Source of the DNA: a virus
DNA: 42,932 nt
Direction: 5' to 3' (one strand)
IMG/VR virus record: IMGVR_UViG_3300048834_000087
Location: 1 to 42,932 of that record
The position numbers were made by a program, and so were the translations under genes. Of the stretch, positions 1 through 13,938 are shown piece by piece; position 1 is the first letter of the stretch; each line of letters starts with the position of its first letter. The notes beneath the pieces were generated by a model. It searched no databases and was not told where the DNA came from. It worked only from the letters and a program-made list of their open reading frames with translations.

Positions 1-131
1 GGAACGCAACCACTGTAATGCAATCTATGGTGATTGCGTTCCCCGCTATTTGCGACGTTTATTTATTCGCCGTGTGGGTTTCTAGTCCTGCATTGTCATT
101 GCCATGGCTACCAATGTCTCGTGGTCACCGG
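1..131. repeat. Left copy of 131-bp terminal direct repeat
   Basis: Positions 1-131 match 42802-42932 at 130 of 131 bases; the only difference is t115 versus a42916. The repeat contains the right arm of a hairpin and the last codons of the gene ending at 82. It is either the overlap of a circular assembly or a short terminal repeat. The single difference is silent (Thr ACA/ACT) in that gene. Confidence 0.9.
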
Positions 132-1224
132 GCACGCCAGCTACGCCCGCATCACGTAAAACGGTTTGCAGCTGTAGCACGGTCATGGCTTCCAACTGGT
201 CTTCGGTGTAGGGAACGTCTGGGTCTTTCGCGCCGATGGGTGCAAAGTCAGCAGCTGGTGGCGCTTCGGTTGGTGCGGGTTCTGGGTCTACTGGTTCCAG
301 CTGTTCCCACACAACCCACGTGCCACTGTTCTCGCACAACCACTCGGTGCCATCGGTCACGTCTACGTGATGCACGTTCAACAGTTCTGCTACGTCAGCT
401 GCTGACAGGGTTTCGTCAGCGTCCATGGTTACCCATCGGCCACCATACGCATCTGCTGCCAGCACGCGCTGTGGGGCAACGTCAGCGGCTTGTGGTTCTT
501 CGGTGGGTGTTGGTGCCGCCTCTGGTTCTGGCGTGGCCTGACGTGCCTTTATAGCTTCAATCACATCAGCCTTGGTTTTGCAGCCATCACGGCTAGCGCC
601 AATGTGATCTGCATACCTGTTCAGGTCAGCGCGGCTCCATTGTTCCGGCCGGGTGCTGGGAAACAGCGGTTGGTTTTCCGGTAGGTTTTCTGGTGGGTTA
701 TCGGTCTTCGCTTCAGCTTCGCGTTGCGCGCGCTTCATCCCAACCTCGTCAACAGGAAACGGTGCCTTCGCGCCCGGTGACGAAACAACCGCCTCGGCTA
801 CCGTGATAGGTGCAGCTGGCACTGGTTCCTGCTTGGTGACCTTCGCTACTTCAGCTTTTTGTTCAATGGTTGGCCCGCTGCCAAATGCTTTCACAGTCTT
901 GCCATCAAACTGCAAGTCATCATCTTCAGCTGTCCAAGACTTTAGCCATATGCCATCACACTTAGCGCGATGAACACGCGTGGTGCCAATCAGGAATGGT
1001 GAACCATCCTGTGTTTCAAAATCGTCACGGTGCCCGGCTTCAATCACAGTGGCACGCACGGTAACTTCAATGGTGGCACCCTTTGGAATCTTCATACCAG
1101 CTGCGGTAATGGTTCCAAGAATGTCACTGGCACCTGTCAACTTTAGTTCAGAGCGGTTAGCGGCCCTGCCGCCAATGCCCTTCACTTCAAATAATCGTTC
1201 TGATTGTGGCTTTGTTTTTGCCAT
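82..1224 (-). CDS. Unknown early protein with SAP/HeH-like C-terminal segments, last gene of the RecT-Gam operon
   Basis: This 380-residue protein has no function I can name. Residues 1-120 look like a compact beta-rich domain (many Thr/Val/Ile strands, an AKCDGIWLK segment). The middle is Pro/Ala/Glu-rich and probably disordered. Two short helical segments, one around EQWSRADLNRYADHIG and one at the very C-terminus (YTEDQLEAMTVLQLQTVL), resemble SAP or HeH nucleic-acid-binding folds. I chose the ATG at 1224 because GGAGACACCACCA lies directly before it; an upstream in-frame start at 1266 has no ribosome site and would run into a terminator. It sits where an exonuclease partner of RecT could be expected, but no nuclease motif is visible. 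Confidence 0.75.
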   Translation of the reverse strand: MAKTKPQSERLFEVKGIGGRAANRSELKLTGASDILGTITAAGMKIPKGATIEVTVRATVIEAGHRDDFETQDGSPFLIGTTRVHRAKCDGIWLKSWTAEDDDLQFDGKTVKAFGSGPTIEQKAEVAKVTKQEPVPAAPITVAEAVVSSPGAKAPFPVDEVGMKRAQREAEAKTDNPPENLPENQPLFPSTRPEQWSRADLNRYADHIGASRDGCKTKADVIEAIKARQATPEPEAAPTPTEEPQAADVAPQRVLAADAYGGRWVTMDADETLSAADVAELLNVHHVDVTDGTEWLCENSGTWVVWEQLEPVDPEPAPTEAPPAADFAPIGAKDPDVPYTEDQLEAMTVLQLQTVLRDAGVAGVPGDHETLVAMAMTMQD

Positions 1225-1237
1225 TGGTGGTGTCTCC
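1225..1237 (-). promoter_or_regulatory. Start-associated sequence variant before the gene at 82-1224
   Basis: Reads GGAGACACCACCA on the minus strand directly before ATG. It is a variant of the recurrent GGAGACCCACACC leader and contains the Shine-Dalgarno GGAG. Confidence 0.6.
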
Positions 1238-1246
1238 ATAGGTAGT

Positions 1247-1284
1247 GGTGAAACGAAACAGGGCACCCAAAGTTGGATGCCCTG
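1247..1284 (-). terminator. Intrinsic terminator after gam
   Basis: On the minus strand a perfect 7-bp stem CAGGGCA/TGCCCTG (arms 1259-1265 and 1278-1284, 12-base loop) is followed by TTTCGTTTC. It lies between the gam stop at 1323 and the leader of the next gene, so it may lower expression of the 82-1224 gene. Confidence 0.65.
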
Positions 1285-1322
1285 AAACTCTACCTATGTG
1301 ACCGGCGTTCACCAGTGTTGGA

Positions 1323-1880
1323 TCATGCCCCAACTTTCACATCGTGTTTGTTTTCACCAATGGTGATAGCAACGCCCGGCGCTATCTCGCCATCAGCAGT
1401 AATAGCTACACCATTCTTTTCTTTCAATAGTTTCTTAGCTTCAGCTTTATCAACCTCGGGGTCTTTACGCCGTACAGCTGTGGGTAGGTTCTTGTCAGCC
1501 CATTCTATAAACGCTTTTTCATCCGTCCATTCCCACTGGTCAGGTTGCTTGCGCGCGGTCAGTTGAACACCGGGCAGCTTCACTGTTTTCAGCTTCGGGT
1601 TTTCTGGCAACACAACATGCTGATGGTATTGCCGGAGCAATCCTTCCCAGTGCGTGCGGTCCATCAGCAATGGCCCGGTCACTTCACCATGCCATTGCTG
1701 GATCAATGCCACCTCGTTTTGCATGGTGCGGTCATGGTCTGTTAGTTGCTTGTCAATGTGCCGCAGTTTGCGCGCTACCCATGCTGCTGTTTCTTCATCC
1801 TTTACGGTGAAACCTTCAGGGTGGTCTGATGGCACGTATGGTTGGGTGATTGGTTGGAAGTCTAGCGCTACGTCAGTCAT
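1323..1880 (-). CDS. gam: Gam-like host-nuclease inhibitor
   Basis: This 185-residue protein matches the Mu Gam family (PF07352-type) in length and layout. An N-terminal coiled-coil half (residues about 25-90, starting with a WVARKLRHIDKQLTDHD segment) is followed by the Kt-G-R part (LKTVKLPGVQLTARKQPD) and a C-terminal GVAITIGENKHDVKV strand. Gam proteins bind DNA ends and protect them from RecBCD/AddAB-type exonucleases. The gene follows recT by one small gene and overlaps that gene by 8 bases; AAAGGACACC precedes the ATG. It would protect linear phage DNA and RecT substrates in the cytoplasm. No Mu transposition genes accompany it. Confidence 0.85.
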   Translation of the reverse strand: MTDVALDFQPITQPYVPSDHPEGFTVKDEETAAWVARKLRHIDKQLTDHDRTMQNEVALIQQWHGEVTGPLLMDRTHWEGLLRQYHQHVVLPENPKLKTVKLPGVQLTARKQPDQWEWTDEKAFIEWADKNLPTAVRRKDPEVDKAEAKKLLKEKNGVAITADGEIAPGVAITIGENKHDVKVGA

Positions 1881-2082
1881 TGTTGGTGGTGTCCTTTATC
1901 CGATTTATTTTCAGTGCATTGCTATTGGCCGGCGGTAATCCAAGCTCCAGCCGTATCTGTTCAATGTGATGCTGTAACACCACGGCCTGAACCACGTGTG
2001 GTTCGTATGGCCACAGCGTTTCACCGGTAGCAGCCTTGAACGAATCTTGCAACCATTGGAAGTTGTCAACGGTGTCAATCAT
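1873..2082 (-). CDS. Small unknown protein between recT and gam
   Basis: A 69-residue protein of unknown function that begins in an ATGA overlap with recT and runs 8 bases into gam. It is mildly helical (residues 3-50) with no zinc cluster or membrane segment. The tight overlap on both sides shows co-translation with the recombination genes, suggesting an accessory role in that pathway, but this rests on position only. Confidence 0.7.
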   Translation of the reverse strand: MIDTVDNFQWLQDSFKAATGETLWPYEPHVVQAVVLQHHIEQIRLELGLPPANSNALKINRIKDTTNND

Positions 2083-3350
2083 AGTTTTGCCGCTGGCCCG
2101 GGGTTAGCCTTCATGGACGCTGCATTTTCCCGCGCACGCTTCGCTGTCATCCCCGGGTTCTGCGCCAACAGTTGCGCAGCGTGGGTTATGTCAGTTGCAT
2201 ACCCATACTTCACCATCCCCCTAGCTAACTGTTCAGCAGCCAACGGCGATAGCGTCATATTGTCTGGCAGTTCCATCAACCCTAGCGTGTTTGGATCAAC
2301 AGGCAACGCTGCTGGCTCTAGGTCACGGTCCATGGCAGCTGCCGCCGCTTCATCCAGTTCAGCGTTTTCCCGTGGCGCGTTGACACTACGGCCCGGCGCT
2401 TGCGGGTTTGGATTGTCTAACGCTTCCCGGCGGGCTAGTTCAGCACGGCACCACTCTGCCTGATTGCGGTTCTTGGCACCGTATTGTGGGTGTGTCACGT
2501 CAGCATTGTCATGGAAATATGTCAGGCTTGAAACGCTGACTTGCATGCAGTCTGTTCCTTTGTCACTGCCCATTGGCCATCCGCGTGGGAATAGTTCACG
2601 GCCACGCTTTTCATGTTCCTGTTCTGGTGTCAGTGGTGGTGGCGGTGCGGGCTGCGCGTATTCTTCAGCAATGACCTCAACATCGGTAACATCTTCCACC
2701 TGTTGAATAGGTGCAGCTGTTTGAACTGGCGCAGCTGCTACCTGCTCGGCTAGTCCAGCTGGCAATGCAACTGTTGGTGCTTGCGCGTTAACTGGTGTGC
2801 CGTCTTCGGTGACCTCTGCCCCTAGTTCTTCGGGCACGTATGACGCGCCGGCAATCACATCGGGGAACAGCATCCGGCATAGCATGGAAATACAGCGCGC
2901 CCATAGCATTGGCTTCGGGACTTTTTGCCAGTTGCCCGGCTTGCCGCTTGACGTTGTTGTAACACCGGCTTGCACAGCATCAGCCATTGTGTATGTCACC
3001 TGCTGTGATTCGCCCGTATCTCTACGGGTTCCAACAATGGTGCATGATTCGCTGGTCAGGTCCACCAGCTTGATGCTGTGGCCGGCCATCCTGACACGTG
3101 CGTTCATCAGTTCAGCTGACATTGCTGGTTTGCCATCTATCACGTGGATATATTGCATGGCCATCATGGGTGACAATCCAAGCTCGCGGCCAATCATGCT
3201 GACGGCGATAATGTCATGGGGCTTGCCACGAAATGGTTTCGGTACGATTTCGGTTTGGGCCAACGCTTCAGCCTGTGCAACGTACCCGTTCCATTCTGCT
3301 GGTGTCGGGAGGTTGCTAGCTTCGCGCGTGGCGAGTGCTGTGGTAGTCAT
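2079..3350 (-). CDS. recT: RecT-family single-strand annealing protein
   Basis: The 423-residue protein carries the RecT core (PF03837) in residues about 15-190: a KPFRGKPHDIIAVSMIGREL segment, then GLSPMMAMQYIHVIDGKPAMSAE, then the aromatic/basic LWARCISMLCRMLFPDV block. RecT coats single-stranded DNA and anneals complementary strands. Residues 190-423 are Pro/Ala/Glu-rich with little conservation, longer than most RecT tails. The ATG at 3350 follows a GGAGACCCACACCA leader. Gam follows two genes downstream. No RecE, YqaJ or lambda-exo homologue is visible nearby, so end resection must be done by a host enzyme or by an unrecognised gene. Confidence 0.9.
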   Translation of the reverse strand: MTTTALATREASNLPTPAEWNGYVAQAEALAQTEIVPKPFRGKPHDIIAVSMIGRELGLSPMMAMQYIHVIDGKPAMSAELMNARVRMAGHSIKLVDLTSESCTIVGTRRDTGESQQVTYTMADAVQAGVTTTSSGKPGNWQKVPKPMLWARCISMLCRMLFPDVIAGASYVPEELGAEVTEDGTPVNAQAPTVALPAGLAEQVAAAPVQTAAPIQQVEDVTDVEVIAEEYAQPAPPPPLTPEQEHEKRGRELFPRGWPMGSDKGTDCMQVSVSSLTYFHDNADVTHPQYGAKNRNQAEWCRAELARREALDNPNPQAPGRSVNAPRENAELDEAAAAAMDRDLEPAALPVDPNTLGLMELPDNMTLSPLAAEQLARGMVKYGYATDITHAAQLLAQNPGMTAKRARENAASMKANPGPAAKL

Positions 3351-3364
3351 TGGTGTGGGTCTCC
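3351..3364 (-). promoter_or_regulatory. Start-associated sequence before recT
   Basis: Exact copy GGAGACCCACACCA immediately before the recT ATG. It is one of five exact 13-mer copies in the genome and provides the Shine-Dalgarno. Confidence 0.75.
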
Positions 3365-3379
3365 ATATTCGTTGATTTA

Positions 3380-3397
3380 TGTAGTGCTGATTCTATA
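3380..3397 (-). promoter_or_regulatory. Possible early promoter core upstream of recT
   Basis: On the minus strand TATAGAAT is followed at once by CAGCACTACA, 15 bases before the recT leader. The same TATA-box-like hexamer plus CAGCACTACA block occurs upstream of the gene starting at 6525. No good -35 box is visible, so this is tentative. Confidence 0.4.
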
Positions 3398-3426
3398 CTG
3401 ACTTGCCGGACGTTGTGGCCTTACTG

Positions 3427-3774
3427 CTATAACCCACGCCCGGGTGTGCGCCGTCCAGCAATCACACCAACAATCAACGCGTGACGAATCAACACAGCAG
3501 TCACCTCGCTAGCCTCCTTCACTGTTTCAAAATCACGGCGCAGAAACACGCCAGCGTGATGCTCCACAAACCGATTGATAGCACTAGGGCTACCATCAAC
3601 AATGTCATACAGCAACGCCGCCGCAGTATCGCCAGCTATCTGCATGCGTGTGGCGATTTCCTGCTCCACGTCCATCAATAGTTGTGTGCTGATGCTGTGA
3701 TTGCCAGATTCCTTTGGGGCAATATGTTCAGTGAACTCACCCACGTGTTCAAGTGCTACATCAATGTCAGCCAT
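3427..3774 (-). CDS. Unknown early protein
   Basis: A 115-residue acidic, helical protein of unknown function. It starts at ATG 3774 inside the end of the preceding gene (8-base overlap), giving MADIDVALEHVGEF; the longer frame to 3831 would overlap far more and lacks a ribosome site. The C-terminus turns basic (RRTPGRGL). There are no cysteine clusters or membrane segments. Confidence 0.65.
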   Translation of the reverse strand: MADIDVALEHVGEFTEHIAPKESGNHSISTQLLMDVEQEIATRMQIAGDTAAALLYDIVDGSPSAINRFVEHHAGVFLRRDFETVKEASEVTAVLIRHALIVGVIAGRRTPGRGL

Positions 3775-4003
3775 TGTTTTGTTCCCGTCTGGCAATCGCC
3801 ATATTCTTTTTGTGTGTTTTATCAGCTGCAATCAATAATGATTCAGCTAAAGACCTTGCCGCGCGTGGTGTCAACTCAACACACCCAGATTCACCATCGT
3901 GAATCACCATGTCTATTTCCACGTTGCCTGTTCTTGACGTGACTGCAATGTAGTCCTGTGGCACTACAGCGCACGGGTATTTGTGGGTGTGGCTAGTTGG
4001 CAT
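3767..4003 (-). CDS. Small unknown early protein
   Basis: A 78-residue protein with a central beta-like stretch (VTSRTGNVEIDMVIHD) and a C-terminal helix (AARSLAESLLIAAD), which could be a small alpha/beta fold; no family recognised. GAGGG lies ten bases before its ATG within GGGAACGCAATCA, a 13-mer also present in the hairpin at the genome ends. Confidence 0.65.
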   Translation of the reverse strand: MPTSHTHKYPCAVVPQDYIAVTSRTGNVEIDMVIHDGESGCVELTPRAARSLAESLLIAADKTHKKNMAIARREQNNG

Positions 4004-4205
4004 GATTGCGTTCCCTCGTTGGGTGCGCAGCGCGCCATGCGTCCAGTGTTTGTGGGTGCCATGCCAGCCGATTGCTTTTCTTGCCGTCTGGTGGTGGTGC
4101 GGTTTTGCGTTCGTAGACTTGGTGCCGCCATGTGTGAATGCTGATGCCTAAGTATGTGGCGGCTTCATGTTTGTCTAGTAAGTCTGTTGGGTGCCATTCT
4201 GGCAT
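3993..4205 (-). CDS. Excisionase/AlpA-like helix-turn-helix protein
   Basis: The 70-residue protein has a MerR/Xis-type winged helix-turn-helix: LDKHEAATYLGISIHTWRHQ is the usual tandem of helices in which a short DNA-binding domain chooses a target, followed by a wing (APPPDGKKSNRLAW) and a terminal helix. Such proteins act as excisionases or small transcription factors. With no integrase in the genome, a transcriptional role is likelier. Start at 4205 follows an exact GGAGACCCACACC leader; the open frame continues upstream to 4373 but without a ribosome site. It is one candidate early regulator of this phage. Confidence 0.75.
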   Translation of the reverse strand: MPEWHPTDLLDKHEAATYLGISIHTWRHQVYERKTAPPPDGKKSNRLAWHPQTLDAWRAAHPTRERNHAN

Positions 4206-4218
4206 GGTGTGGGTCTCC
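4206..4218 (-). promoter_or_regulatory. Start-associated sequence before the HTH gene
   Basis: Exact GGAGACCCACACC directly before ATG 4205. TATAGT lies 15 bases upstream of it on the minus strand, as a possible -10 element. Confidence 0.7.
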
Positions 4219-4273
4219 TTTGTTGGGGTATTCACTATATGTTGTCGGGCTGATGCTTTACTATTCTGGTTGT

Positions 4274-4326
4274 GAACGGGACGGTTGGCGTTCAGGCTGG
4301 TGGGTCTCCACGCTGCCGTCCCGTTC
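4274..4326 (-). promoter_or_regulatory. Perfect 11-bp inverted repeat with an orphan leader in its loop
   Basis: Arms GAACGGGACGG (4274-4284) and CCGTCCCGTTC (4316-4326) enclose a 31-base loop. The loop holds GGAGACCC-ACC at 4299-4309 (minus strand), a start-associated-like element with no start codon behind it. No T-run follows, so it is not a standard terminator. It lies in a 145-base gap between two early genes. Confidence 0.6.
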
Positions 4327-4350
4327 GCTTCCCTCGAGGTATGGCAATGG

Positions 4351-4572
4351 TTACATTGCTGGTGGTGGTCCAATGATGTTTTCTATTTCGGCCACAATGT
4401 TTTGTTCAAGTGTTCGCGGACAATCAATGTTTCCTTGCGCCAGCTGGTAGTGGGCATCGGCTCGAGCAAGCGCTGTCATCTGTGCCCGTACCGTTGGCGT
4501 GTCAATGGAAAACATGAACCGGTCAACGATTCGCTCGGCTGACCGCTTTGCAAATGTTCTGTCTATAGGCAT
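4351..4572 (-). CDS. Small unknown early protein
   Basis: A 73-residue, mostly helical protein (TFAKRSAERIVDRF, AQMTALARADAHYQLAQG) of unknown function. It overlaps the end of the preceding gene by 10 bases and has GAGGT seven bases before the start. Confidence 0.65.
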   Translation of the reverse strand: MPIDRTFAKRSAERIVDRFMFSIDTPTVRAQMTALARADAHYQLAQGNIDCPRTLEQNIVAEIENIIGPPPAM

Positions 4573-4901
4573 TCAGAACCTCGTTTTTCTATCACTTCAT
4601 TTTGCAGATTCGCCTGTTCAGCCGCACACAACTGGCGCAACTGACTAGCCACATGCAATGCCTGCATCTCCATATGACTGACGCACGTTTCCATTTGTTC
4701 AGTCAACACCCAGCGTTCATCTGTGGTAAGCGGACGGGTGACTGTTTGACCCATGCGCAGCACACCATCAGCATCTTTATAGACTGGGTTGGTTGTCACT
4801 GTTCCCCGGCCATGTCGCTTCAGTAGCGCTGTGGCTTCGGTTGTCATTCTTCGCAAGTCAATCAGTGACCTGTTCAGTGTTTGTTTTTGTGGTTGCATCA
4901 T
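4563..4901 (-). CDS. Unknown early helical protein
   Basis: A 112-residue helical protein with no recognised family. Residues 8-30 and 55-105 form likely amphipathic helices (MEMQALHVASQLRQLCAAEQ). It begins in an ATGA overlap with the MazG-like gene, so the two are translated together. Confidence 0.65.
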   Translation of the reverse strand: MMQPQKQTLNRSLIDLRRMTTEATALLKRHGRGTVTTNPVYKDADGVLRMGQTVTRPLTTDERWVLTEQMETCVSHMEMQALHVASQLRQLCAAEQANLQNEVIEKRGSECL

Positions 4902-5164
4902 TTCAAGCCTCGTTTGTCTATCGCTTCAATCCAAGCAACAGCAACCGCCGCCACCTGAATCAACTCCCACCGCAGTTCACCAGCAGCCTTCCCACCAAAC
5001 TTGTCATGCAACACGGCCTGCGCAGCTTCCCCAACCTCTTCAGTCAGTATCGCTAGCCATGTTGTGTCAGGATGGCCGGACTGGTCACCCCATTGTTCAA
5101 TCTGTGCCCGGCGTTCAATGCTAACCGCCGTCAATGCGCGTTCCATAGTTTCTGATTTTCTCAT
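4898..5164 (-). CDS. MazG-like nucleotide pyrophosphohydrolase
   Basis: The 88-residue protein fits the small all-alpha NTP pyrophosphohydrolase fold: QIEQWGDQSGHPDTTW, then the metal-binding ExxE helix LTEEVGEAAQAV, then a second acidic helix (ELIQVAAVAVAWIEAID) that would complete the metal site. Phage MazG-like enzymes hydrolyse NTPs or alarmones such as (p)ppGpp-related nucleotides; the substrate here cannot be told. ATGA overlaps link it to both neighbours in the early operon. Confidence 0.75.
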   Translation of the reverse strand: MRKSETMERALTAVSIERRAQIEQWGDQSGHPDTTWLAILTEEVGEAAQAVLHDKFGGKAAGELRWELIQVAAVAVAWIEAIDKRGLK

Positions 5165-5502
5165 TGTTCTACCTGACTGATTGTTTCCCGCAGCTTTCGT
5201 AACAGACTGTTCAAGCTGCTGAAGGTGGAACGGTCACCAGAGTTACCCGGGCTGAATCTAGTAGCGCGCATTGGTGCGAACTTGTCAGCGTGATATTCAA
5301 CTTCGGCTATGACCACTTCAATCTGGTCTGGTGTCATTGCTTTACCATCCAACAATGCTTGGTAAGCGGATACTTCAAACACGCGGCTGGCATAGTCTTC
5401 AGCTGTTTCATCGTGTGGACTTAGCGTTTCCACTTCATCCATGGCGTTGCCCCATAGGTGTTTGATTTCCTCGCGTTGTAATGGTGTCAATGTCAGTGTC
5501 AT
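5161..5502 (-). CDS. Unknown early protein
   Basis: A 113-residue acidic protein of unknown function, N-terminal part helical (REEIKHLWGNAMDEVE), C-terminal part basic and Ser-rich. It ends in an ATGA overlap with the MazG-like gene. Confidence 0.65.
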   Translation of the reverse strand: MTLTLTPLQREEIKHLWGNAMDEVETLSPHDETAEDYASRVFEVSAYQALLDGKAMTPDQIEVVIAEVEYHADKFAPMRATRFSPGNSGDRSTFSSLNSLLRKLRETISQVEQ

Positions 5503-5520
5503 AAGGCTGCCGCCTTTCCC

Positions 5521-5778
5521 TCAGTACGATTTGTGGTTGCCGGGGTGGTATCCGCAGAGAGCTAGGTATTCCAGTTCTGCTATGTCACGCTCAATAACCT
5601 GACGGGCTTCAGCTAGCGTCAAAGTATTGGCCAGCCATACATCGTTTGTGTCTTCACTGGCGAGGTATGTGAGCCAATAAAGCGGTGCCCCGTTTTCGCT
5701 TTCACATGTGTAGGTGAAGTGGCTACCGTTTTGTGTTTCGTAGCTGCCGGCCCTTAGTCTTTTCAGTTTGATGGTCAT
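5521..5778 (-). CDS. Unknown early protein
   Basis: An 85-residue protein with an N-terminal beta-rich half (SYETQNGSHFTYTCE, GAPLYWLTYL) and a C-terminal helix (LAEARQVIERDIAELE). The layout resembles small host-takeover proteins, but no family is recognised. The start overlaps nothing and lies close to the stop of the preceding gene. Confidence 0.6.
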   Translation of the reverse strand: MTIKLKRLRAGSYETQNGSHFTYTCESENGAPLYWLTYLASEDTNDVWLANTLTLAEARQVIERDIAELEYLALCGYHPGNHKSY

Positions 5779-5779
5779 G

Positions 5780-6016
5780 CTATTCAGCGTCTTTCAGTCC
5801 AAGCGCTACACACGCGTCACGTAATGCGCACTGAAGCTCCTCGATATTGGACTCGATTTCTTCGCGCGCGTCACGGCGCTGGTCTTTGCTGTCTTGATCT
5901 GTTTCACCGTCTAGGTCTAGCCATTCCTGAAGTGGGCTGGTGATGTTGGCCATGACGCTTTCAAGGTCATCAAGTGCCATGGATAGTGTTTCAACATTGT
6001 GCATTGTGATTCGCAT
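5780..6016 (-). CDS. Unknown acidic coiled-coil early protein
   Basis: A 78-residue, strongly acidic and helical protein (EEIESNIEELQCALRDACV). Start could be 6016 or the internal ATG 6004 (MHNVETLSM); neither has a strong ribosome site. Function unknown. Confidence 0.6.
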   Translation of the reverse strand: MRITMHNVETLSMALDDLESVMANITSPLQEWLDLDGETDQDSKDQRRDAREEIESNIEELQCALRDACVALGLKDAE

Positions 6017-6021
6017 GGTGT

Positions 6022-6246
6022 TTATTGCTCCATTTTCGCTTGGTGTGCCAGCATGTGCTGAAGTGAATCAACACCGTTAGGGAAACACTTTCGGCACAGG
6101 TTGTTTTCAGTTGCGTGCTTTAGGTCTACCTTCATGGCCCGTGTCTTGCGGGTCCATCCGTCATAGTTGCAATACGCCCGCTCTCCGTCTGTGTGGTGCA
6201 GCTTGGTTCCGGTTCCGATTCGCCCTAGTTGATTTCGGTTCTTCAT
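6022..6246 (-). CDS. Small zinc-finger-like early protein
   Basis: A 74-residue basic protein with cysteines at YCNYDGW and CRKCF and several histidines, consistent with a small zinc-binding fold. The start at 6246 has an exact GGAGACCCACACC leader whose first base overlaps the stop of the preceding gene (TAGGAG). Function unknown; DNA or RNA binding is a guess from charge and cysteines. Confidence 0.65.
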   Translation of the reverse strand: MKNRNQLGRIGTGTKLHHTDGERAYCNYDGWTRKTRAMKVDLKHATENNLCRKCFPNGVDSLQHMLAHQAKMEQ

Positions 6247-6259
6247 GGTGTGGGTCTCC
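6247..6259 (-). promoter_or_regulatory. Start-associated sequence before 6022-6246
   Basis: Exact GGAGACCCACACC before ATG 6246; the upstream stop codon TAG runs into it as TAGGAG, so here the element must act in translation rather than as a promoter. Confidence 0.75.
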
Positions 6260-6525
6260 TATCGTGTTAGTGGGTTAGCTGCCGCGTGACGGGCAAGGTG
6301 GGCAGCGTATGAAATGCGGATCATCAGGGTGCCACGTGCATCGCGGGCTGCGGTAAGCACTGCACATAGGTGGGCGGCTTCATCCTTGGTTGCCGTAGTG
6401 GGAAGGTTGGCGGCAACTGCATCAGCAAACTTGGTGAAGGTCTTGAATGTGCCGCGCCAGTTTCGTGCCTCGATGCCGTCTAGTGTTTTGTTGATGGCGG
6501 TGATTGTGGTGTCGGTCTGGTACAT
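6259..6525 (-). CDS. First gene of the leftward early operon, unknown
   Basis: An 88-residue helical protein of unknown function (FTKFADAVAANLP, DEAAHLCAVLTAARDARG). The open frame extends to 6687, but the ATG at 6525 follows a GGAGACCCACAGC leader and the longer frame would cover the promoter region, so 6525 is preferred. It opens the run of early genes that ends with RecT and Gam. Confidence 0.7.
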   Translation of the reverse strand: MYQTDTTITAINKTLDGIEARNWRGTFKTFTKFADAVAANLPTTATKDEAAHLCAVLTAARDARGTLMIRISYAAHLARHAAANPLTR

Positions 6526-6538
6526 GCTGTGGGTCTCC
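6526..6538 (-). promoter_or_regulatory. Start-associated sequence variant before 6259-6525
   Basis: GGAGACCCACAGC directly before ATG 6525, one base different from the exact element. Confidence 0.65.
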
Positions 6539-6544
6539 GGTTGC

Positions 6545-6582
6545 TGTAGTGCTGTATCTGTATATCCCCACTGTAATACAGT
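6545..6582 (-). promoter_or_regulatory. Candidate early promoter with palindromic operator
   Basis: On the minus strand a perfect 13-bp palindrome ACTGTAATACAGT (6570-6582) is followed by a TATACA box (6559-6564) and CAGCACTACA (6545-6554). The last two elements recur upstream of recT. The palindrome shares CCACTGTAAT with the hairpin at the genome ends. The region lies between the leftward early operon and the only rightward gene, where divergent control is expected. No clear -35 box can be assigned. Confidence 0.45.
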
Positions 6583-6650
6583 TTCGTTACACCGCGCAAC
6601 CCATACAACACACGTTGGCCTCTTTTGGCCTACCCCGACACCGCAACCAC

Positions 6651-6668
6651 CGCACCAGCTAAGGTGCG
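6651..6668 (+). promoter_or_regulatory. Hairpin covering the ribosome site of the plus-strand gene
   Basis: CGCACC-AGCTAA-GGTGCG forms a 6-bp stem with a 6-base loop. The only Shine-Dalgarno-like stretch, AAGGTG (6661-6666), is in the loop edge and right arm, and ATG 6672 follows three bases after the stem. The stem would hide the ribosome site and could delay translation. Confidence 0.5.
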
Positions 6669-6671
6669 CGG

Positions 6672-7301
6672 ATGAACCAAAACACACGCTTAATCATCAC
6701 CGCACTAGCCACAATCCTAATAACCATCAGCAGCACAGCAATAGCACGCGCCCACACAATCACCACAGCGGACTGCCGCAGCGCCGCCAGCGCAGCCGCA
6801 ACCCACCAGCAATGGCAAAGTACCTACCGCGCATGCAAAACCCGTAGCGCGCGGCACAGCTACTACCACGCGTGCAAACCACCACGCCCCACCATCACCA
6901 TTGCCCGCGTCAAAGGACACCGCGCAAACCGGCACCAGCTGCGCGTCATCAGCCGGACACTAACCGTAGGCCGGAAATACCACGCGCCACGCAATGTACA
7001 GATAGCAGCCATCACCGCCATCACACAGGAATCAAACGCCACCAACATACGCCACGGCCACGGCACCAGCGTAGGAATCCTGCAACTAATCAACACCCAT
7101 GGCAGTATCAAATGGCGGCTAGTCATCGAGAACAGTGCAGGCTGGTTCTACCGTGGCGCACGCCAAGTACGAACCCGGCACCAAGCACCCGGCACCATCG
7201 CACAATCAGTTCAGCGCAGCGGACACCCACGCGCATACCATCAATGGACCAGTGAAGCAACACGCACCGTGCAACGCTGGTACGGCCCATGCCGAAACTA
7301 G
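6672..7301 (+). CDS. Secreted lysozyme/transglycosylase-like protein, only plus-strand gene
   Basis: This 209-residue protein begins with a Sec-type signal peptide (basic MNQNTR, hydrophobic core LIITALATILITISSTA, then ARAHT). Residues 30-75 hold four cysteines (C35, C55, C68 and one near the C-terminus at C207). Residues 108-205 match the lysozyme-like insert of the tail hub (11414-13264): IAAITAITQES with candidate catalytic Glu120, GILQL, WFYRGA, then a C-terminal SEATRTVQRWYG helix. It therefore probably cleaves peptidoglycan outside the membrane, as an exported endolysin or a superinfection/entry factor. The coding strand is A/C-rich like the minus-strand genes, so it is not obviously foreign. 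Its stop shares a CTAG with the stop of the convergent gene. Confidence 0.75.
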   Translation: MNQNTRLIITALATILITISSTAIARAHTITTADCRSAASAAATHQQWQSTYRACKTRSARHSYYHACKPPRPTITIARVKGHRANRHQLRVISRTLTVGRKYHAPRNVQIAAITAITQESNATNIRHGHGTSVGILQLINTHGSIKWRLVIENSAGWFYRGARQVRTRHQAPGTIAQSVQRSGHPRAYHQWTSEATRTVQRWYGPCRN

Positions 7302-7639
7302 GCAGACTGCCCACGGTCAATCTTTAGTTCTTCCACGAACTCACGAATCACCACAACACTGTCAGTCAAAACATCAACACGTTCATCAATGCGATTGACC
7401 TTTGACTCGGTTCTGATGGTAGAACTTTCAGTTTTCTGCATACGGTCCAACAATGTTGAACCACCATTGTTCACCAACTGTGACTGAATAAGTTGGTGCG
7501 CTGCGCGTGTTGACCGCACGCCATCTCGTATGCCATTGAAGACACGGCGAAGTATCACGCGCCATAGGATTGCCGCGCCACCTACTGCGCCACCTAGCAG
7601 AACAATGTTTTGCGCAACTATCTGCCAATCAGTCATCAT
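7298..7639 (-). CDS. DUF2746-like membrane protein, holin candidate
   Basis: The 113-residue protein has one N-terminal membrane segment (QNIVLLGGAVGGAAILW, residues about 8-26), a basic stretch, then an Asn-Gly-Gly linker and a coiled coil (LLDRMQKTESSTIRTESKVN onward). This layout resembles the DUF2746 proteins of actinophages, often next to lysis genes. A one-pass holin or an anchor for the lysis protein is possible. It meets the plus-strand lysozyme-like gene tail to tail, and AGGGGGT precedes its start after the fibre gene. Confidence 0.6.
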   Translation of the reverse strand: MMTDWQIVAQNIVLLGGAVGGAAILWRVILRRVFNGIRDGVRSTRAAHQLIQSQLVNNGGSTLLDRMQKTESSTIRTESKVNRIDERVDVLTDSVVVIREFVEELKIDRGQSA

Positions 7640-7645
7640 TACCCC

Positions 7646-8998
7646 CTACCAGTTAGGTCCAAGCCGCTTCATGATTATTCGCGTTGCCCATGCAGCCGCA
7701 ACTACATAAGTCAAGTTGCCGCCAGAGTTTTGGTACGCCTGAAGTTCTACATAGTTGGTGTTGGTAAGATTGTGGAAACCCGGCTCGCCATTCACGGCCA
7801 TGTCAGTGACTGCGCCATCTGAAGCATGCGGCCAGTTAGTAGCTTCATACCTAGTGCCGTTGATGGCTATTCCAGAACCAACTGTTTTGTCATTTGGAAC
7901 ACCACCTAAATATGCTTGGTGGAATATCTGATACCTACCATCAACCCTTACATCAAGCCGCTTATTGGTAGACAGGTCAACTTGTGCCGCCACATTGTTT
8001 GGCCGCAAGTCATAGCTTGCGAGCCATGTCAATGTTCCGCCGCCGCTACCAACCTTCTGCCAGTTGCCAGAGTTGTTGTGTGTTGGTGAGCCGCCTGTGT
8101 CTGCATACATGCCTGCAACTACTGACATTGCTCGTTCATCAGCGCGCCAATGTCCAGCGGAATCACAGAACAAATCTACTACCGCACCTTGCGATATTGT
8201 AATGGCTGTCAGAGCGTTATTGATTGTGTCACTGCCAGCGCGTGCCAAACTAAATGTGTCAGTGCCATCTAGGTTGCGAATCACAAACCGCATCCCCTCG
8301 GCCGCTGCCGGCAACGTCAACGTCTGTGACGCTGCACCAATAAACGTAACGTCTTCAGCGCCGGCAGCGCTAATAGTTCCAGACGCTGTGAACGCTTGCA
8401 CGCCACGTAATGGCGCAACCCTAATGATTGGCGCATCATTACTATTGTGCGCCGGGGTACGCATGGTGGAATAGTCACCAGCCACACCACACACAAACAA
8501 CACGCGTTCACCCGGTCCAACAATAATAGATTCATTGGTAACGCCATCAATCTTCTCGCCAGACTGAACCGCAATCGTTACATTGTCAGTTGCATCAATG
8601 TTGGCAAACAGGAACCTGCCGCCCTGCTTTGCTGCCGGCAACGTCAACGTCTGACCAGACGCGCCAGTGAACGTGACCAGTTCACCACCAGTAGCGCTAA
8701 TGTTTCCGGTAGCCGTCAGCGCTTGCGATGCAGCGGTGTGACCACCAAGACGTTCAACAATCCAAGCAACACCATTGTCAAACCAGACAGTCTGCGCGGG
8801 CACGCTACCAGCGTCATCAGTCTGTCGGTATCGTTGCCCAAACTTTCCAGCAGCTGGACGCGCCGCATACAGGCCAGTGTCAGCAGGAGTTAGCTTCAGG
8901 TCAATAGCATCAGCCAATGCTTGGATCTGCAAATGTCCTTCAGCTGGGTCAGCTGCCTCGGGATATGGCAAGTCATGTATAGCGGTCACGTCAGTCAT
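7646..8998 (-). CDS. Tail fibre / receptor-binding protein with duplicated beta domain and C1q-like tip
   Basis: The 450-residue protein is the last tail gene. Residues 1-85 (GLYAARPAAGKFGQRYRQTD) are a virion-attachment segment. Two homologous repeats follow, about 93-178 and 198-282, each with a TFTGA.GQTLTLPAA core and an FVIRNLDGTD/FLFANIDATD strand. Residues about 295-450 resemble a C1q/TNF-like jelly roll (ASYDLRPNN, VDGRYQIFHQAYLGG), a common trimeric receptor-binding tip in Gram-positive phages. It probably binds the host surface at the baseplate. AAAGG precedes the ATG. The domain assignments are by eye. Confidence 0.75.
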   Translation of the reverse strand: MTDVTAIHDLPYPEAADPAEGHLQIQALADAIDLKLTPADTGLYAARPAAGKFGQRYRQTDDAGSVPAQTVWFDNGVAWIVERLGGHTAASQALTATGNISATGGELVTFTGASGQTLTLPAAKQGGRFLFANIDATDNVTIAVQSGEKIDGVTNESIIVGPGERVLFVCGVAGDYSTMRTPAHNSNDAPIIRVAPLRGVQAFTASGTISAAGAEDVTFIGAASQTLTLPAAAEGMRFVIRNLDGTDTFSLARAGSDTINNALTAITISQGAVVDLFCDSAGHWRADERAMSVVAGMYADTGGSPTHNNSGNWQKVGSGGGTLTWLASYDLRPNNVAAQVDLSTNKRLDVRVDGRYQIFHQAYLGGVPNDKTVGSGIAINGTRYEATNWPHASDGAVTDMAVNGEPGFHNLTNTNYVELQAYQNSGGNLTYVVAAAWATRIIMKRLGPNW

Positions 8999-9010
8999 AG
9001 CAAAACCTTT

Positions 9011-9628
9011 CTAATAAGTATCGGCCACATCAGCCCATGAAGTGTAATCAGTAACAACATCAGACCAGAGTGGTGTGTCAGCAACCAGCGTTGCCCAATC
9101 CATCCCATCACGCACCTCGTAATGAAGAATGATGCCAGCTGGTTTCTGTTCCAAAATCGCTGCCTCAACCAATGCAGCATCTGGCGTTTCAGGCGCGAAC
9201 GTGAAAATAGTTAGGTGCCCCGGTGAATCAACCAAAGGGTCAGTAATGTCATACCGCTCGCGGAATATCACTGTCTTAGTTCCAGTCAAATGCTTTGCCG
9301 CAGCACTACGAATAGAACTAGGCTTGCCGCGCTTGAACCCATCAGTGTTACTGATACGCACACGGTGTTCATCTTCGGTTTGGCCGGGAATCAAAGTCAC
9401 CCCAACGAACTGGCCCAACCATCCCAGCGCTTCAGCTGGCGCGTTATCAACATCAAGCAGGATACCCCAACCCGGTAACCCCAACTCTGGCGTATCACGA
9501 ACATACAGGTCTGGTGTTTCCAAACCCATGCTGTAAGCCGTGACATAGTGAAGCAATGCGTAGCCTTGGTTGGCATCATCCCACGCAACCGGTGCCAATG
9601 CTTCATACATGTCAGCGGCTACCGTCAT
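9011..9628 (-). CDS. Baseplate protein I-like (gpI family)
   Basis: The 205-residue protein lies directly after the J-like gene with an ATGA overlap, the usual position of P2 gpI-type baseplate proteins. It contains WGILLDVDNAPAEALGWLGQ and an RISNTDGFKRGKPSSIRSA segment, typical of the gpI family, and ends with a short Trp/Asp-rich tail (ATLVADTPLWSDVVTDYTSW). It would join the fibre to the baseplate wedge. Confidence 0.7.
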   Translation of the reverse strand: MTVAADMYEALAPVAWDDANQGYALLHYVTAYSMGLETPDLYVRDTPELGLPGWGILLDVDNAPAEALGWLGQFVGVTLIPGQTEDEHRVRISNTDGFKRGKPSSIRSAAAKHLTGTKTVIFRERYDITDPLVDSPGHLTIFTFAPETPDAALVEAAILEQKPAGIILHYEVRDGMDWATLVADTPLWSDVVTDYTSWADVADTY

Positions 9629-10797
9629 GGCGCTGACACCGTTGAGGTAATCGTTCCAAGTTCAGGCAATGGCGCTGCGCCAGTTAACGTAACGTCAGTG
9701 GTTCCACCGTTGATGGTCAATGATGTTAGGTGGTCAAATCCATCAACATTATTGATAGCGGTAATGACCTCGAAATATCGCACCTTGTCATCTAGCTGCC
9801 ACTCGCGTGCGTCACCAAATGATGGCCGGCCCCAGTTAGCCGGGGAAACATAATCAGTTAGCATTGCGTCAATCGCTGCCTCGACAACAGCAGGGTCAGC
9901 ATCGGGACGGCACACACCAACATAGACAAAACTGATTGTTGTATATGTTGGGTCTATAGCGTAAACATTGAAGTTGACCTCGCGCTCTGATTCCAAGTAT
10001 GCAACCACGTTAGCCTTGATGCCGACACTAACCGGGTCACCGTTCGTATCAATAGACGCAATGGAAACCGTGCGGTCATAGTCCGTACCAATATCACTAG
10101 GGTTGTAAAGGTCAATGGCCACGGCACGGTCAACACCGTCAACGTCTTGCGCCATGATGGCAAAGTCACGTGGCAAGATTGGCCGTGGGCTAAGTAGCTG
10201 CAAGCGTGTGCGTAGCCTGTCCAAATAGGCTTCATCTGTTTCAGCATCAACACCACCGCTAGACGCAACCGCCACAACAATACTGGCGATGAAATCCAAG
10301 CCATCAACCATGGTGACAGTTCCATTCAGGCCATTGCCGCTAGCGCCACCAGCGCCCTCTTCCAACACGGCTTCAAGGATAGCGCCCTCGATAACACTAG
10401 GGTCAACCAACGCGTCATGTTCAACACTAAGGTCATAAGGAAACTGGAATGGGAACTCAACACCACTGCCATTATCAACACCAACCAGTGTGCCAGCTGG
10501 TATTTCATACGAACCATCATCAACAAATGTAATGTCAACAGTGATGGTAGCTGGCGTGTTCTCGTCTGGCGGCAAGTTCAGTAGGTCAGTTCCAAACTTC
10601 CTAAAGATAGCGGCTGGAACGTCACCAATCATGTCACGAATACTGGCAGCGATTCTTGAACCACCGCGCAAAATCCATAGTTCCAAGTTACCTTCACTGG
10701 CATCAAAATCTGGAATGTTAGCCTCGAGGTATTCCAACTGCTCTAGTGTCAGCGCATCTGGATCTGTCTCTATTTCAATGTCAATAAACTTTGCCAC
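9625..10797 (-). CDS. Baseplate wedge protein J-like
   Basis: At 390 residues this fits the baseplate J family (PF04865; P2 gpJ, Mu gp47). The hallmark elements are an N-terminal helix-rich part (residues 1-80), the EIPAGTLVG strand near residue 100 and the ETDEAYLDRLRTRLQLLSPR segment near 185. It starts with GTG in a TAGTG overlap with the gp25-like gene. Together with gp25/W and I it builds the wedges of a contractile-tail baseplate. Confidence 0.88.
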   Translation of the reverse strand: MAKFIDIEIETDPDALTLEQLEYLEANIPDFDASEGNLELWILRGGSRIAASIRDMIGDVPAAIFRKFGTDLLNLPPDENTPATITVDITFVDDGSYEIPAGTLVGVDNGSGVEFPFQFPYDLSVEHDALVDPSVIEGAILEAVLEEGAGGASGNGLNGTVTMVDGLDFIASIVVAVASSGGVDAETDEAYLDRLRTRLQLLSPRPILPRDFAIMAQDVDGVDRAVAIDLYNPSDIGTDYDRTVSIASIDTNGDPVSVGIKANVVAYLESEREVNFNVYAIDPTYTTISFVYVGVCRPDADPAVVEAAIDAMLTDYVSPANWGRPSFGDAREWQLDDKVRYFEVITAINNVDGFDHLTSLTINGGTTDVTLTGAAPLPELGTITSTVSAP

Positions 10798-11117
10798 TAT
10801 CCACCAGCCGTTTCAGCCTCTTGCATGGTTACCTGCACACGTCCAATCATGGTGTCCAAATCGGACCCATCGGCATACGCGTTGAATCGTGCGCGTGGTT
10901 CGTGCCGTTCGATAGCTTCGCGGATTGGTTCAGCCACTGGCCCGCCAGTTTTGAAGGCCATGTCAGGTATGCCGTAGTCAGGCACTTCAATACGCGCACC
11001 CAGTGGTGTTCGTAAGATTGCCTCAACATTGCCCTGTATTTCAGCAGACGAATCACGTTCAACTGTTACCGCGCGGCCATTCACAAACCGGAACGGGTAT
11101 GCAAGATTGCGCGCCAT
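10797..11117 (-). CDS. Baseplate wedge protein gp25/W-like
   Basis: The 106-residue protein matches the T4 gp25/P2 gpW family (PF04965): VEAILRTPLGARIEVPDYGI followed by EPIREAIERHEPRARF. These proteins form the inner wedge of contractile baseplates and nucleate the sheath. GGAGGG lies before ATG 11117, immediately after the stop of the previous gene. Confidence 0.88.
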   Translation of the reverse strand: MARNLAYPFRFVNGRAVTVERDSSAEIQGNVEAILRTPLGARIEVPDYGIPDMAFKTGGPVAEPIREAIERHEPRARFNAYADGSDLDTMIGRVQVTMQEAETAGG

Positions 11118-11411
11118 CTAACCCTCCCACCATGCAACCACAAACGGGTCACCATTGTCATCAATAAACACAATGCCTTCAGTGCCGGCTGTTGGCAGCG
11201 TCACACCGTGCGGTTCCCACCGCGCTTCAATCACGGTGTTACCTGTCCAGCCCGGCACAGTAATGGATGCAAGCTCGGCAGCTACGGCATCAGCAATGAA
11301 CGCGCACGCCCATGGCCCGGTGCTGCCAGCGCTAACCGGGTCGCTATACAAATCTTCATCATCAAATGAACTACCACCGCGCTGGGTAAATAGGTCTTCC
11401 AAGCCGCCCAT
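11118..11411 (-). CDS. Small baseplate protein, possibly OB-fold spike
   Basis: A 97-residue protein between hub and wedge genes, the usual place of the gpV/gp45 puncturing protein. Residues 50-97 (VIEARWEPHGVTLPTAGTEG then IVFIDDNGDPFVVAWWE) read like the late strands of a phage OB-fold in which a fluid DDNGDPFVV turn follows a barrel strand. It is much shorter than a typical spike and lacks a beta-helix, so it may only be the OB part. Confidence 0.5.
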   Translation of the reverse strand: MGGLEDLFTQRGGSSFDDEDLYSDPVSAGSTGPWACAFIADAVAAELASITVPGWTGNTVIEARWEPHGVTLPTAGTEGIVFIDDNGDPFVVAWWEG

Positions 11412-11413
11412 GG

Positions 11414-13264
11414 TTACGCCCTTTGGATTCCAACATGTATATGGTCATCATGGTCAATGCTGCTACCCCACAGGATCTGGACAGTGAACTTTTTGCCATC
11501 AACTGTGATGCTGAATCGTGCAAAACTATTTGGCTTCCAACCGGGGTAGCCCATATCTTTAGCCAACTCGCGGGCTGCCGCTTCACCATTTCTAGTTGGG
11601 TAGTCAATAGCATAGGAGTTAGTTTTACTGGTCAGGTGGTCGCTGCCGCTTGACCCGCCAATAGCAGCGTTCTGCGCTGGCGAGCGTTTCTGACTGCCAG
11701 CTGTCAACCCACGGCGCTTCAATGCCGGGGTAACAAACTGGGTGAAAATACTTTGCGTGCCACCCCATGGTCCAGATACTTGAATATCACCTAACGCTGA
11801 ATCGCCACGCGTGCCAGTCTTGGTACCGGTCTGTGAACCCTGCTGGGTGGCCGGCTCTGGTAGCTTCGGCTTTGGTTTCCGCATGCTAATAGTTGCAACA
11901 TTGCTATACAGGCTTTGAGTGTATTTAGTCACCAACCATTTACCAGTGGCCGGGCCTGCATCTTCCAACTCGATAGTGCTACCGGGCGGCACAGACCACC
12001 TAGCAGCATCAACCACCAATGATGCTTCGCTAACATTCAGGCCACTGTCAACATCAAACTCGAGAGACCTGACAAACGCATCATCTTCATTGATGGTTAG
12101 TAACGCGCGTGATGCAAACAACCGGGTTTCACTAGCTAGGTAAATCGTGTTTGCAATGACGTAGTAACGCCACTCAACTTCAGTTGCTAACCGTTGGGAA
12201 CCATCCCAGTAAGATTCTTTTTTTTCACCACCGGGTGGTCCAATGCTGAACAGGTATTTGCCGGTCACTGCTTTACGTCTGTTGGTGCCCGGCGCGTCAC
12301 CCTTGCCACTGCCCATGTAAGCCGTCACCGTGTTCTTAGCTTCAGTGACCCATGCTTGGTACAGGCTGCCCTGTCCGCTGCCCTCAACGCGTTCACATAG
12401 TGCGGCAATACCAATGGATGGGTTGGCTTTATGTATCGCCATCGCTGTACGAAAAAACCATGCAGCGGCATACTCAACATTTTTACGTTGCGTGACTGTG
12501 CCCTTAGCGGCATCCATTTGAAACAATCCGATGTGGACACCAGACTTGCCAACAGCTGACGCGCTCATTGTTGATTCCTGTGTAGCAGCTGCAATAGCCG
12601 CTTCCATTACTTTACGTGGTGCGCCAACACTAGCGCCCACGTCCAGAATCCTGTTCATGGTCCGGCGCTGCGCACTAGACGCTGACACGCGCTTGACCGT
12701 AACCTTCGCTTTGTCAGCAATGCCGTAGCTAGCGGCCTTGCCTTTAGCGCCAACACTGGCCTTCAATGGTTGCTTGTCATTCAGTTCAGGACAAACGAAC
12801 TTCACACGTGGCCGTAGTTCCCGCGCTCTAGCTAACAGGAACTGTGCCCGATTGACTTTCCCACGGGTAGCAACACGCACACGTTTCAAGCTACGCAACG
12901 CCACAACTACGTCATCTTCAAACGTGCAGGTTAGCGTGTTGTCAGAACCCTTGCGGACACCAACCAAACGCCAATCAACACCAGCCAACCGAGCAGTGAT
13001 TCCATCACCGTCAAGATTGCCTTTCCCGAACATGCCACTACGCAACACCTTCAGCTGCTTGTCATCAAACGTGACCTCGATATATGGCGCAGATTCAATA
13101 TCAAGATTCAGCACAATGTCACTAACCGCAGCGCTGACCTCGGCCTTTAGTTTCCGGCCGGCAATAGTCAAATCATCAGGACCATTGGCCGCAGCCAACA
13201 ATGCTGGTGTTTCCTCGACTGCCTGCAACGGATCAAACAAACGGTCCTTTGCAGTGCGGCTCAT
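11414..13264 (-). CDS. Baseplate hub with lysozyme-like insert and M15-like peptidase tail
   Basis: This 616-residue protein combines three parts. Residues 1-195 and about 320-470 resemble a tail hub (gpD/gp27-type beta domains, for example LVTKYTQSLYSNVATISMR). Residues 200-317 form a lysozyme-like domain (IAAATQES with candidate Glu230, GLFQM, AAWFFRTA) homologous to the plus-strand secreted protein. Residues about 475-616 are an M15-type metallopeptidase-like domain: SDHLTSKTNSYAIDYP supplies H543 and D555, and DHDDHIHVG supplies the last histidine. It would puncture and locally digest peptidoglycan at infection. ATGA overlap with the LysM gene. Domain limits are by eye. Confidence 0.8.
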   Translation of the reverse strand: MSRTAKDRLFDPLQAVEETPALLAAANGPDDLTIAGRKLKAEVSAAVSDIVLNLDIESAPYIEVTFDDKQLKVLRSGMFGKGNLDGDGITARLAGVDWRLVGVRKGSDNTLTCTFEDDVVVALRSLKRVRVATRGKVNRAQFLLARARELRPRVKFVCPELNDKQPLKASVGAKGKAASYGIADKAKVTVKRVSASSAQRRTMNRILDVGASVGAPRKVMEAAIAAATQESTMSASAVGKSGVHIGLFQMDAAKGTVTQRKNVEYAAAWFFRTAMAIHKANPSIGIAALCERVEGSGQGSLYQAWVTEAKNTVTAYMGSGKGDAPGTNRRKAVTGKYLFSIGPPGGEKKESYWDGSQRLATEVEWRYYVIANTIYLASETRLFASRALLTINEDDAFVRSLEFDVDSGLNVSEASLVVDAARWSVPPGSTIELEDAGPATGKWLVTKYTQSLYSNVATISMRKPKPKLPEPATQQGSQTGTKTGTRGDSALGDIQVSGPWGGTQSIFTQFVTPALKRRGLTAGSQKRSPAQNAAIGGSSGSDHLTSKTNSYAIDYPTRNGEAAARELAKDMGYPGWKPNSFARFSITVDGKKFTVQILWGSSIDHDDHIHVGIQRA

Positions 13265-13938
13265 GGTATTTTCAGCTTTCGGCCCGGGGTCAGTTTCTTA
13301 CGGGCATCACGAATAGGTGGTGATTGTGCGTTACCAATCAAACGCCATTGCCGCTGATCTTTGTAATACTTAGCGGCTAGCTTATGCAGCGTGTCACCTT
13401 TTTTGCAGGTGTGCGTGCGGGTTGTGGTTCCCGGTTTCTTTTTCGTAACCAGCACCACGGCTGGATTGAACTCCATCAAACTAACGGTGGCGTATTGCCG
13501 CACCAATGTAGTGCCTGACATACGCGCATTGCCGGGCACTAACGCGCTGATAACCCAACGGGTTGATGTTCCCGGCAGGTTCCCTGTCACACGTATCTCG
13601 CCCGGGGTAGCTGCGCCCTTTGGCTTCACAGCCATTTGCTTCAGCGCGCCCCATGCGCTAGCAACAGTGATAGTGCCACCAGCATCATCACGCAACGGTG
13701 ACCCATCTGGACCTGTTAGCAAACCATCATTGGCGTACCCGTCAAGTATCACGGCCACGTCCATGGTCCGCAATCCTTCGCCTTCCCATTCAGTGGTTGC
13801 CTTGCGCCGTTGACGCGCAACCTCGGACCAGCCATAGGATTGAATCACCTGTGGTAAATCGTTATCCATCAGCGCTAGCACGGGTGCCTCTCCCGGCTTT
13901 ACTGGTGCGAACTGAACCATGCCCATGGGTACCGTCAT
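13261..13938 (-). CDS. LysM-bearing baseplate/tail-tip protein
   Basis: The 225-residue protein ends in a LysM motif (residues about 172-225: HTCKKGDTLHKLAAKYY, then RLIGNAQ and LTPGRKLKIP). It lies between tape measure and hub, like T4 gp53-type and P2 gpX/Mu-type LysM proteins, which link hub to wedge rather than bind free cell wall. The N-terminal 150 residues are beta-rich. ATGA overlaps on both sides. Confidence 0.8.
   Translation of the reverse strand: MTVPMGMVQFAPVKPGEAPVLALMDNDLPQVIQSYGWSEVARQRRKATTEWEGEGLRTMDVAVILDGYANDGLLTGPDGSPLRDDAGGTITVASAWGALKQMAVKPKGAATPGEIRVTGNLPGTSTRWVISALVPGNARMSGTTLVRQYATVSLMEFNPAVVLVTKKKPGTTTRTHTCKKGDTLHKLAAKYYKDQRQWRLIGNAQSPPIRDARKKLTPGRKLKIP

Follow-up and report, generated by a model that had tools for sequence, protein, structure and literature searches.

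A stand-alone GH184-like muramidase gene with a putative export signal, related to the tail-hub insert of the same actinobacterial phage

In the viral record IMGVR_UViG_3300048834_000087, analysed in full (42,932 bases, hereafter the window), we counted 65 leftward (minus-strand) genes, covering 95% of the sequence. The stretch 6526-7297 (772 bp) is the sole one longer than 233 bp without minus-strand genes and is filled by a plus-strand ORF, 6672-7301, which is therefore the only credible rightward gene of the record, in agreement with the original prediction of a single plus-strand gene against about 66 on the other strand. Its reading frame has the best codon score among the six (0.069, versus -0.12 or lower), at the low end of the genes of this phage, and its composition is deviant (GC3 of 0.64 versus 0.51). 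Antisense ORFs within 6717-7320(-) were considered as true genes and ruled out by codon score and homology. The features of the locus, in which P0001 denotes the rightward gene and its product, are as follows.

6259-6525, minus strand: first gene of a leftward operon leading to RecT and Gam, its start probably to be re-assigned to the ATG at 6525 behind GGAGA
6526-6671, no strand: divergent intergenic region of 146 bp between the muramidase gene and the leftward early operon (tetramer count)
6570-6582, no strand: perfect 13-bp palindrome ACTGTA-A-TACAGT (ACTGTAATACAGT), operator-like, the only perfect copy in the record (sequence scan)
6661-6664, plus strand: AAGG, putative ribosome-binding site seven bases before the ATG (read from the sequence)
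6672-7301, plus strand: stand-alone GH184-like muramidase gene P0001, 209 aa, export putative (homology, profile, fold and gap filling)
6672-6752, plus strand: putative Sec signal peptide, residues 1-27, hydrophobic at 7-25, AxA at 25 and 27 (hydropathy and motif)
6753-6893, plus strand: linker or small N-terminal region, residues 28-74, with Cys35, Cys55 and Cys68 and a low-confidence helix (AlphaFold model and sequence)
6894-7289, plus strand: GH184-like catalytic domain, residues 75-206 (homology, profile and fold)
7029-7031, plus strand: codon of Glu120, which corresponds to Glu41, essential in KsGH184 (profile alignment)
7059-7061, plus strand: codon of His130, at the position of KsGH184 Asp66, Asp in 63/68 relatives (profile alignment)
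7298-7639, minus strand: last gene of the leftward tail operon, with one hydrophobic segment (about residues 12-30) and a charged tail (hydropathy)

The stop codons of the muramidase gene and of 7298-7639(-) overlap, tail to tail. The product of the latter found no homolog among the named phages searched, and a terminator-like site 3' of the muramidase gene (7305-7318) scored no better than chance. On the other side, seven TGTA/TACA tetramers lie within the 63 bp of 6545-6607, the densest such cluster of the genome, and this cluster with its palindrome is likely, on its base pattern, to be the operator of some phage regulator. The intergenic region as a whole has the look of an operator region serving divergent promoters. 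Early expression of the muramidase gene is a reasonable guess as to both promoter and timing: the gene had been placed near an early promoter, and it does diverge from the RecT/Gam operon at a distance of 146 bp, whereas a sigma-70 promoter scan of 6526-6671 gave no match. We additionally observed a common extended leader, GGAGACCCACA(C/G)C, before the start codons of the leftward genes 2079-3350, 6022-6246, 6259-6525 and 38887-39084(-).

The ends of the record (1-131 and 42802-42932) form a 131-bp direct terminal repeat with one mismatch, indicating that the record very probably closes on itself at about 42.8 kb and is a complete genome. The repeat contains an inverted repeat, GGAACGCAA..TTGCGTTCC. 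The virus is a contractile-tailed phage of actinobacteria, encoding Baseplate J (E 3e-15), a hub, a sheath (read from its translation) and a Mu-type portal (E 2e-44), together with RecT, a Mu Gam-like protein, RusA, a DNA methylase and helicase-loader-like proteins. The closest named phages by single proteins are actinophages, for example with 27% identity to the baseplate J of Arthrobacter phage Altadena and 37% to Streptomyces phage terminases. A DNA search of window positions 1-20000 against named phages gave no near match, single-query searches of viral contigs with P0001, baseplate J, hub, TerL and sheath recovered no close relative of the phage, and no integrase was found among the large proteins scanned. 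Elsewhere in the genome, three tandem, paralog-like proteins of about 260 aa (30807-33168, minus strand) adjoin a collagen-like fibre protein (33171-34574), and 30382-30654(-) encodes a cold-shock-domain-like protein, read by eye from its translation.

The N-terminus of P0001 reads MNQNTR, then LIITALATILITISSTAIA, then RA: a short start with one Arg is followed by a 19-residue hydrophobic stretch of mean hydropathy 2.17, with AxA sites after residue 25 or 27. Inspection of hydropathy and motif makes Sec-type export plausible, as had been claimed for this protein, and it is possible that the stretch serves instead as a signal anchor. The mature protein would be very basic, with a computed pI of 11.7.

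A relationship of this protein to an insert in the tail hub had been proposed from shared motifs over residues 108-205, and the homologous span proved to be wider.

11414-13264, minus strand: tail hub (gp27/VgrG-like), 616 aa, with a GH184-like insert and an M15-like C-terminal stretch (model and alignment)
12308-12709, minus strand: GH184-like insert of the hub, paralog of the putatively exported protein (six-frame search, BLASTP and model)

By BLASTP, residues 75-209 of P0001 match hub residues 188-322 at 33% identity (E 4e-18), and a six-frame search of the whole record recovered exactly two loci, 6672-7301(+) and 12308-12709(-), at E 1e-17. We also trained an HMM on relatives alone, excluding the two copies in the window. 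Of the 408 window ORFs it scored 6672-7301 highest (E 9e-30), followed by the hub (7e-27), and shuffling P0001 500 times gave nothing better than E 0.21. Because the HMM places both copies at the top and shuffles do not approach them, the match is true homology over about 130 residues, far beyond chance. The homologous span also covers the ITVK-type linker that hubs carry ahead of the insert, which fits with capture of the insert as one unit.

The hub itself, in an AlphaFold model of modest confidence (pLDDT 66), matches a Streptomyces CIS hub (E 1.5e-6), T4 gp27-gp5 (1k28, E 4e-4) and VgrG, and in the same model (pLDDT 66) the insert superposes on 8b2e at 1.6 A. Fifteen hubs align end to end with the window hub at 25-33% identity, with the insert at one place in all. 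This hub family, which includes the hubs of the viral contigs L012 to L051, keeps the GH184-like insert; its C-terminal hydrolase is exchanged, being NlpC/P60-like in most relatives and M15-like in the window.

P0001 had no match in Pfam or NCBIfam, PHROGs matched its domain only with parts of tape-measure proteins and endolysins, and phmmer of the single sequence against the PDB reached only E 0.24. A profile of the group, searched against the same database, matched the GH184 muramidases 8b2h (E 6e-16) and 8b2e (E 3e-13). The AlphaFold model has a pLDDT of 91-98 for most of residues 80-205 (in blocks of ten from 81), and Foldseek of this model returned only two PDB entries below E 1e-3, both GH184 muramidases; the match to 8b2e has E 1.1e-4, a TM-score by target of 0.78 and an rmsd of 1.2 A. 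The lysozyme-like fold that had been foreseen from the sequence is thus found in the predicted structure, and is of the GH184 type.

Glu120, which is invariant in 68/68 viral relatives, aligns with Glu41 of KsGH184, essential by mutation (PMC10394673). P0001 also keeps the Ser after it, Gly129, Ser133, Gly135 and Gln138, and Ser133 aligns with Ser69 of KsGH184, the residue found where hen lysozyme carries its second carboxylate (PMC10394673). Three conserved positions have changed: D130H (Asp in 63/68 relatives), Q139L (Gln in 67/68) and F137L (Phe in 68/68). Asp66 of KsGH184, replaced here by His130, lies near the position of gp13 Gln54, and substrate stabilisation has been suggested for it, with no requirement demonstrated. 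Since this residue is replaced, we call P0001 GH184-like rather than a member of GH184. From its residues catalysis is plausible, and in view of the three changes the enzyme may be weak or inactive. The window hub likewise lacks the Asp and the second Gln, so that their loss is not peculiar to P0001.

We identified the domain at 80 viral loci, which we classed by protein length, by where the domain sits and by sequence as hubs (about 500-950 aa), tape-measure proteins, endolysin-like proteins of 350-400 aa without signal, M23-linked forms and membrane-anchored forms; short proteins with a signal peptide are absent from the 80. In hosts the domain occurs extracellularly, in signal-bearing or membrane-anchored wall proteins. 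In the tree P0001 falls within the hub group (SH-aLRT 98 with a six-row set and 96 with all 16 hub rows), and does not group with tape-measure, endolysin or host copies. Its branch is very long (2.58) and its composition deviant, and this placement is read with caution. Placement outside the hub group was only borderline rejected (p-AU 0.051), and the data neither establish nor reject its own hub as its sister (p-AU 0.48), with an SH-aLRT of 80 for P0001, its own hub and the hub of L051. Origin from a host wall enzyme is disfavoured, grouping with host proteins being rejected at p-AU 0.015. Descent of P0001 from a tail-hub insert of this kind of phage is therefore supported. The 20 hub-related records searched, many of which are fragments, each yielded the hub copy and no stand-alone one.

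The unusual composition, the low codon score and the lack of a stand-alone copy in relatives would also suit a silent gene, one that arose as a recent duplicate or was acquired as a fragment and has no function. We consider this very improbable: the frame is intact, with signal and catalytic Glu, at 33% identity to the hub, where a dead copy would decay, and the ORF fills its gap exactly. The three substitutions, the long branch with its deviant composition and the strongly basic mature protein are, in turn, what one might expect of an exported, wall-binding decoy that is catalytically weak or dead, which would have kept the fold, lost cleavage after duplication and come to occupy peptidoglycan or hub-binding sites. 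This we regard as unlikely, given that the essential Glu and the residues listed above are kept, that the own hub, presumably still used in injection, has lost the same Asp and second Gln, and that KsGH184 itself has a Ser in place of the second carboxylate (PMC10394673).

We additionally identified a separate candidate lysis cassette, on the minus strand and 19 kb from the muramidase gene.

26661-27356, minus strand: candidate main endolysin, an M15/VanY-like peptidase (motifs; VanXY E 2.8e-7, VanY E 1e-3)
27253-27825, minus strand: protein with two hydrophobic segments, candidate holin, overlapping the M15 gene (judged by hydropathy)

The peptidase carries the M15 motifs SNHGKGRAAD (SxHxxGxAxD) and EPWH (ExxH), and together with the two-TM protein may form the lysis cassette of the genome, so that P0001 need not be the sole lysin. 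The muramidase gene does not lie in or near a lysis module, and 7298-7639 is the one gene beside it that might belong to lysis. Lysis genes often come after tail genes, and the position of P0001 after the tail genes, with its tail-to-tail overlap with a one-TM protein, could be read as a lysis pair ending the tail operon, with P0001 as principal endolysin, 7298-7639 as its membrane partner and the M15 protein at 27 kb as a virion or processing enzyme. The matches of the M15 protein are indeed partly to virion proteins (phrog_16823 tape measure, E 8e-12, and an internal virion protein). Such a pair would not be co-transcribed, as its genes lie on opposite strands, no homolog backs 7298-7639 as a holin, and the M15 gene with the adjoining two-TM gene makes the more canonical pair; we accordingly think this arrangement improbable.

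We favour, by a little over even chances, the reading that P0001 is a Sec-exported GH184-like muramidase derived from a tail-hub insert and acting as an accessory (second) lysin. Homology, fold, catalytic Glu, descent within the hub group, a solitary divergent position and a separate candidate lysin are its computed elements; export, activity, timing and the role in lysis are what we infer. The signal would carry P0001 across the membrane without a holin, and in the wall the enzyme would cut, or stay nearly inactive until the membrane is depolarised. Its cleavage of glycan strands would then supplement the cleavage of peptides by the M15 endolysin, which the 27-kb cassette would release, and a free glycan-cutting enzyme and an M15 peptidase would be a natural pair of complementary bond specificity. 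Against this, the gene reads opposite to the late operon; since it also lies outside the M15 cassette, it would not be co-transcribed with the late lysis genes. Furthermore, as no relative of the same architecture was found, the lysis role draws no support from a conserved context. The cutting domain and its lytic use do have precedents: the domain is used in the endolysin-like proteins of 350-400 aa of other phages and, judged by fold, in Lysin A of Arthrobacter phage GurgleFerb, and kayvirus Tgl, the LysA pairs of Gordonia phages and the two lysozymes of T4, all compared below, are parallels for a second lysin. The combination of a tail copy and a putatively exported stand-alone copy was not found in the hub-related records searched.

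It had been argued that an exported enzyme made early would serve something other than lysis. This step does not hold in general: kayvirus Tgl is a muralytic, lytic-transglycosylase-like enzyme with signal-peptide export and a host-type early promoter, which lyses Staphylococcus aureus together with nisin and is interpreted as an additional endolysin awaiting membrane depolarisation (PMC7150955). Superinfection exclusion or wall remodelling, in which the early exported enzyme would alter the wall or compete at the cutting site of the hub, so that later phages fail to inject and the M15 cassette performs lysis, is still the less likely account, at well below even chances. The position of the muramidase gene, divergent beside an early operon with an operator-like region, the presence of a separate candidate lysin and the close kinship of P0001 with the phage's own injection enzyme all agree with it, and T4 Spackle is an exported phage protein acting at the tail-lysozyme step, which exclusion can thus target (PMC7650644). 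Spackle, however, is an inhibitor rather than a muramidase, the simpler use of an active exported muramidase would be to aid lysis, as with Tgl, there is no counterpart in the 20 hub-related phage records, and no finding here points specifically to either exclusion or remodelling. Our literature search on early exported muramidases in superinfection exclusion found no direct precedent. The fuller scenario, that the phage copied its own hub muramidase, gave it an early divergent promoter and an export signal, and alters the wall from inside so as to block a second infection or pre-condition the wall rather than lyse the cell, we hold to be a shade less likely again.

If the early, non-lytic account were true, it would represent a new kind of exclusion, and if the lysis reading is right, the Tgl-type secondary lysin extends to actinophages. 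The locus presents a route from a virion entry enzyme to a putatively exported stand-alone enzyme, with a descent traceable by tree and by shared domain limits. Linking a domain with little annotation to the GH184 muramidases also points to functional names for many hub, tape-measure and endolysin domains of actinophages.

Compared with known systems, P0001 shares with the GH184 muramidases KsGH184 (8b2e) and TtGH184 (8b2h) the fold, the essential Glu, the Ser-x-Gly-x-x-Gln core motif and extracellular use (predicted for P0001). These two enzymes are fungal and keep Asp66 and the second Gln, unlike P0001, and TtGH184 has an SH3-like wall-binding domain that P0001 lacks. The hub inserts (of the own hub, L012, L016, L023 and L051) agree with P0001 in tree group, domain limits and ITVK-type linker, whereas they are internal domains of 500-950-aa virion hubs without signal and P0001 stands alone with a putative export signal. 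The host wall proteins L122 and L123 of Enemella resemble it in having a signal-peptide-like N-terminus followed by the domain, and in their extracellular location; they differ in belonging to another part of the tree (a common clade being that rejected above) and in their long Pro/Thr-rich C-terminal tail.

Among phage lysins, the split single-domain LysA pairs of Gordonia phages (PMC9671378) resemble P0001 and the M15 peptidase as two single-domain lysins of different bond specificities in one phage. They are split genes of one lysis region with no reported hub kinship or export signal, in contrast to the window genes, 19 kb apart and on opposite strands. Another pairing is known in T4, where gpe, which lacks a signal and depends on a holin, is the main endolysin. 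T4 has, besides this endolysin, the tail lysozyme gp5 with a T4L-like domain (PMC7650644), and thus, like the window phage, combines a tail lysozyme with a free one of the same kind; the difference is that its pair belongs to the T4-lysozyme family. Kayvirus Tgl, to whose class we do not assign P0001, differs from it in its IsaA/SceD-related domain, in its position three genes from lysK, and in that its activity and promoter were shown experimentally. It is like P0001, the export of which is putative, as a small Sec-exported enzyme of lysozyme/transglycosylase type that is additional to a main endolysin and whose transcription is at least partly independent of that endolysin.
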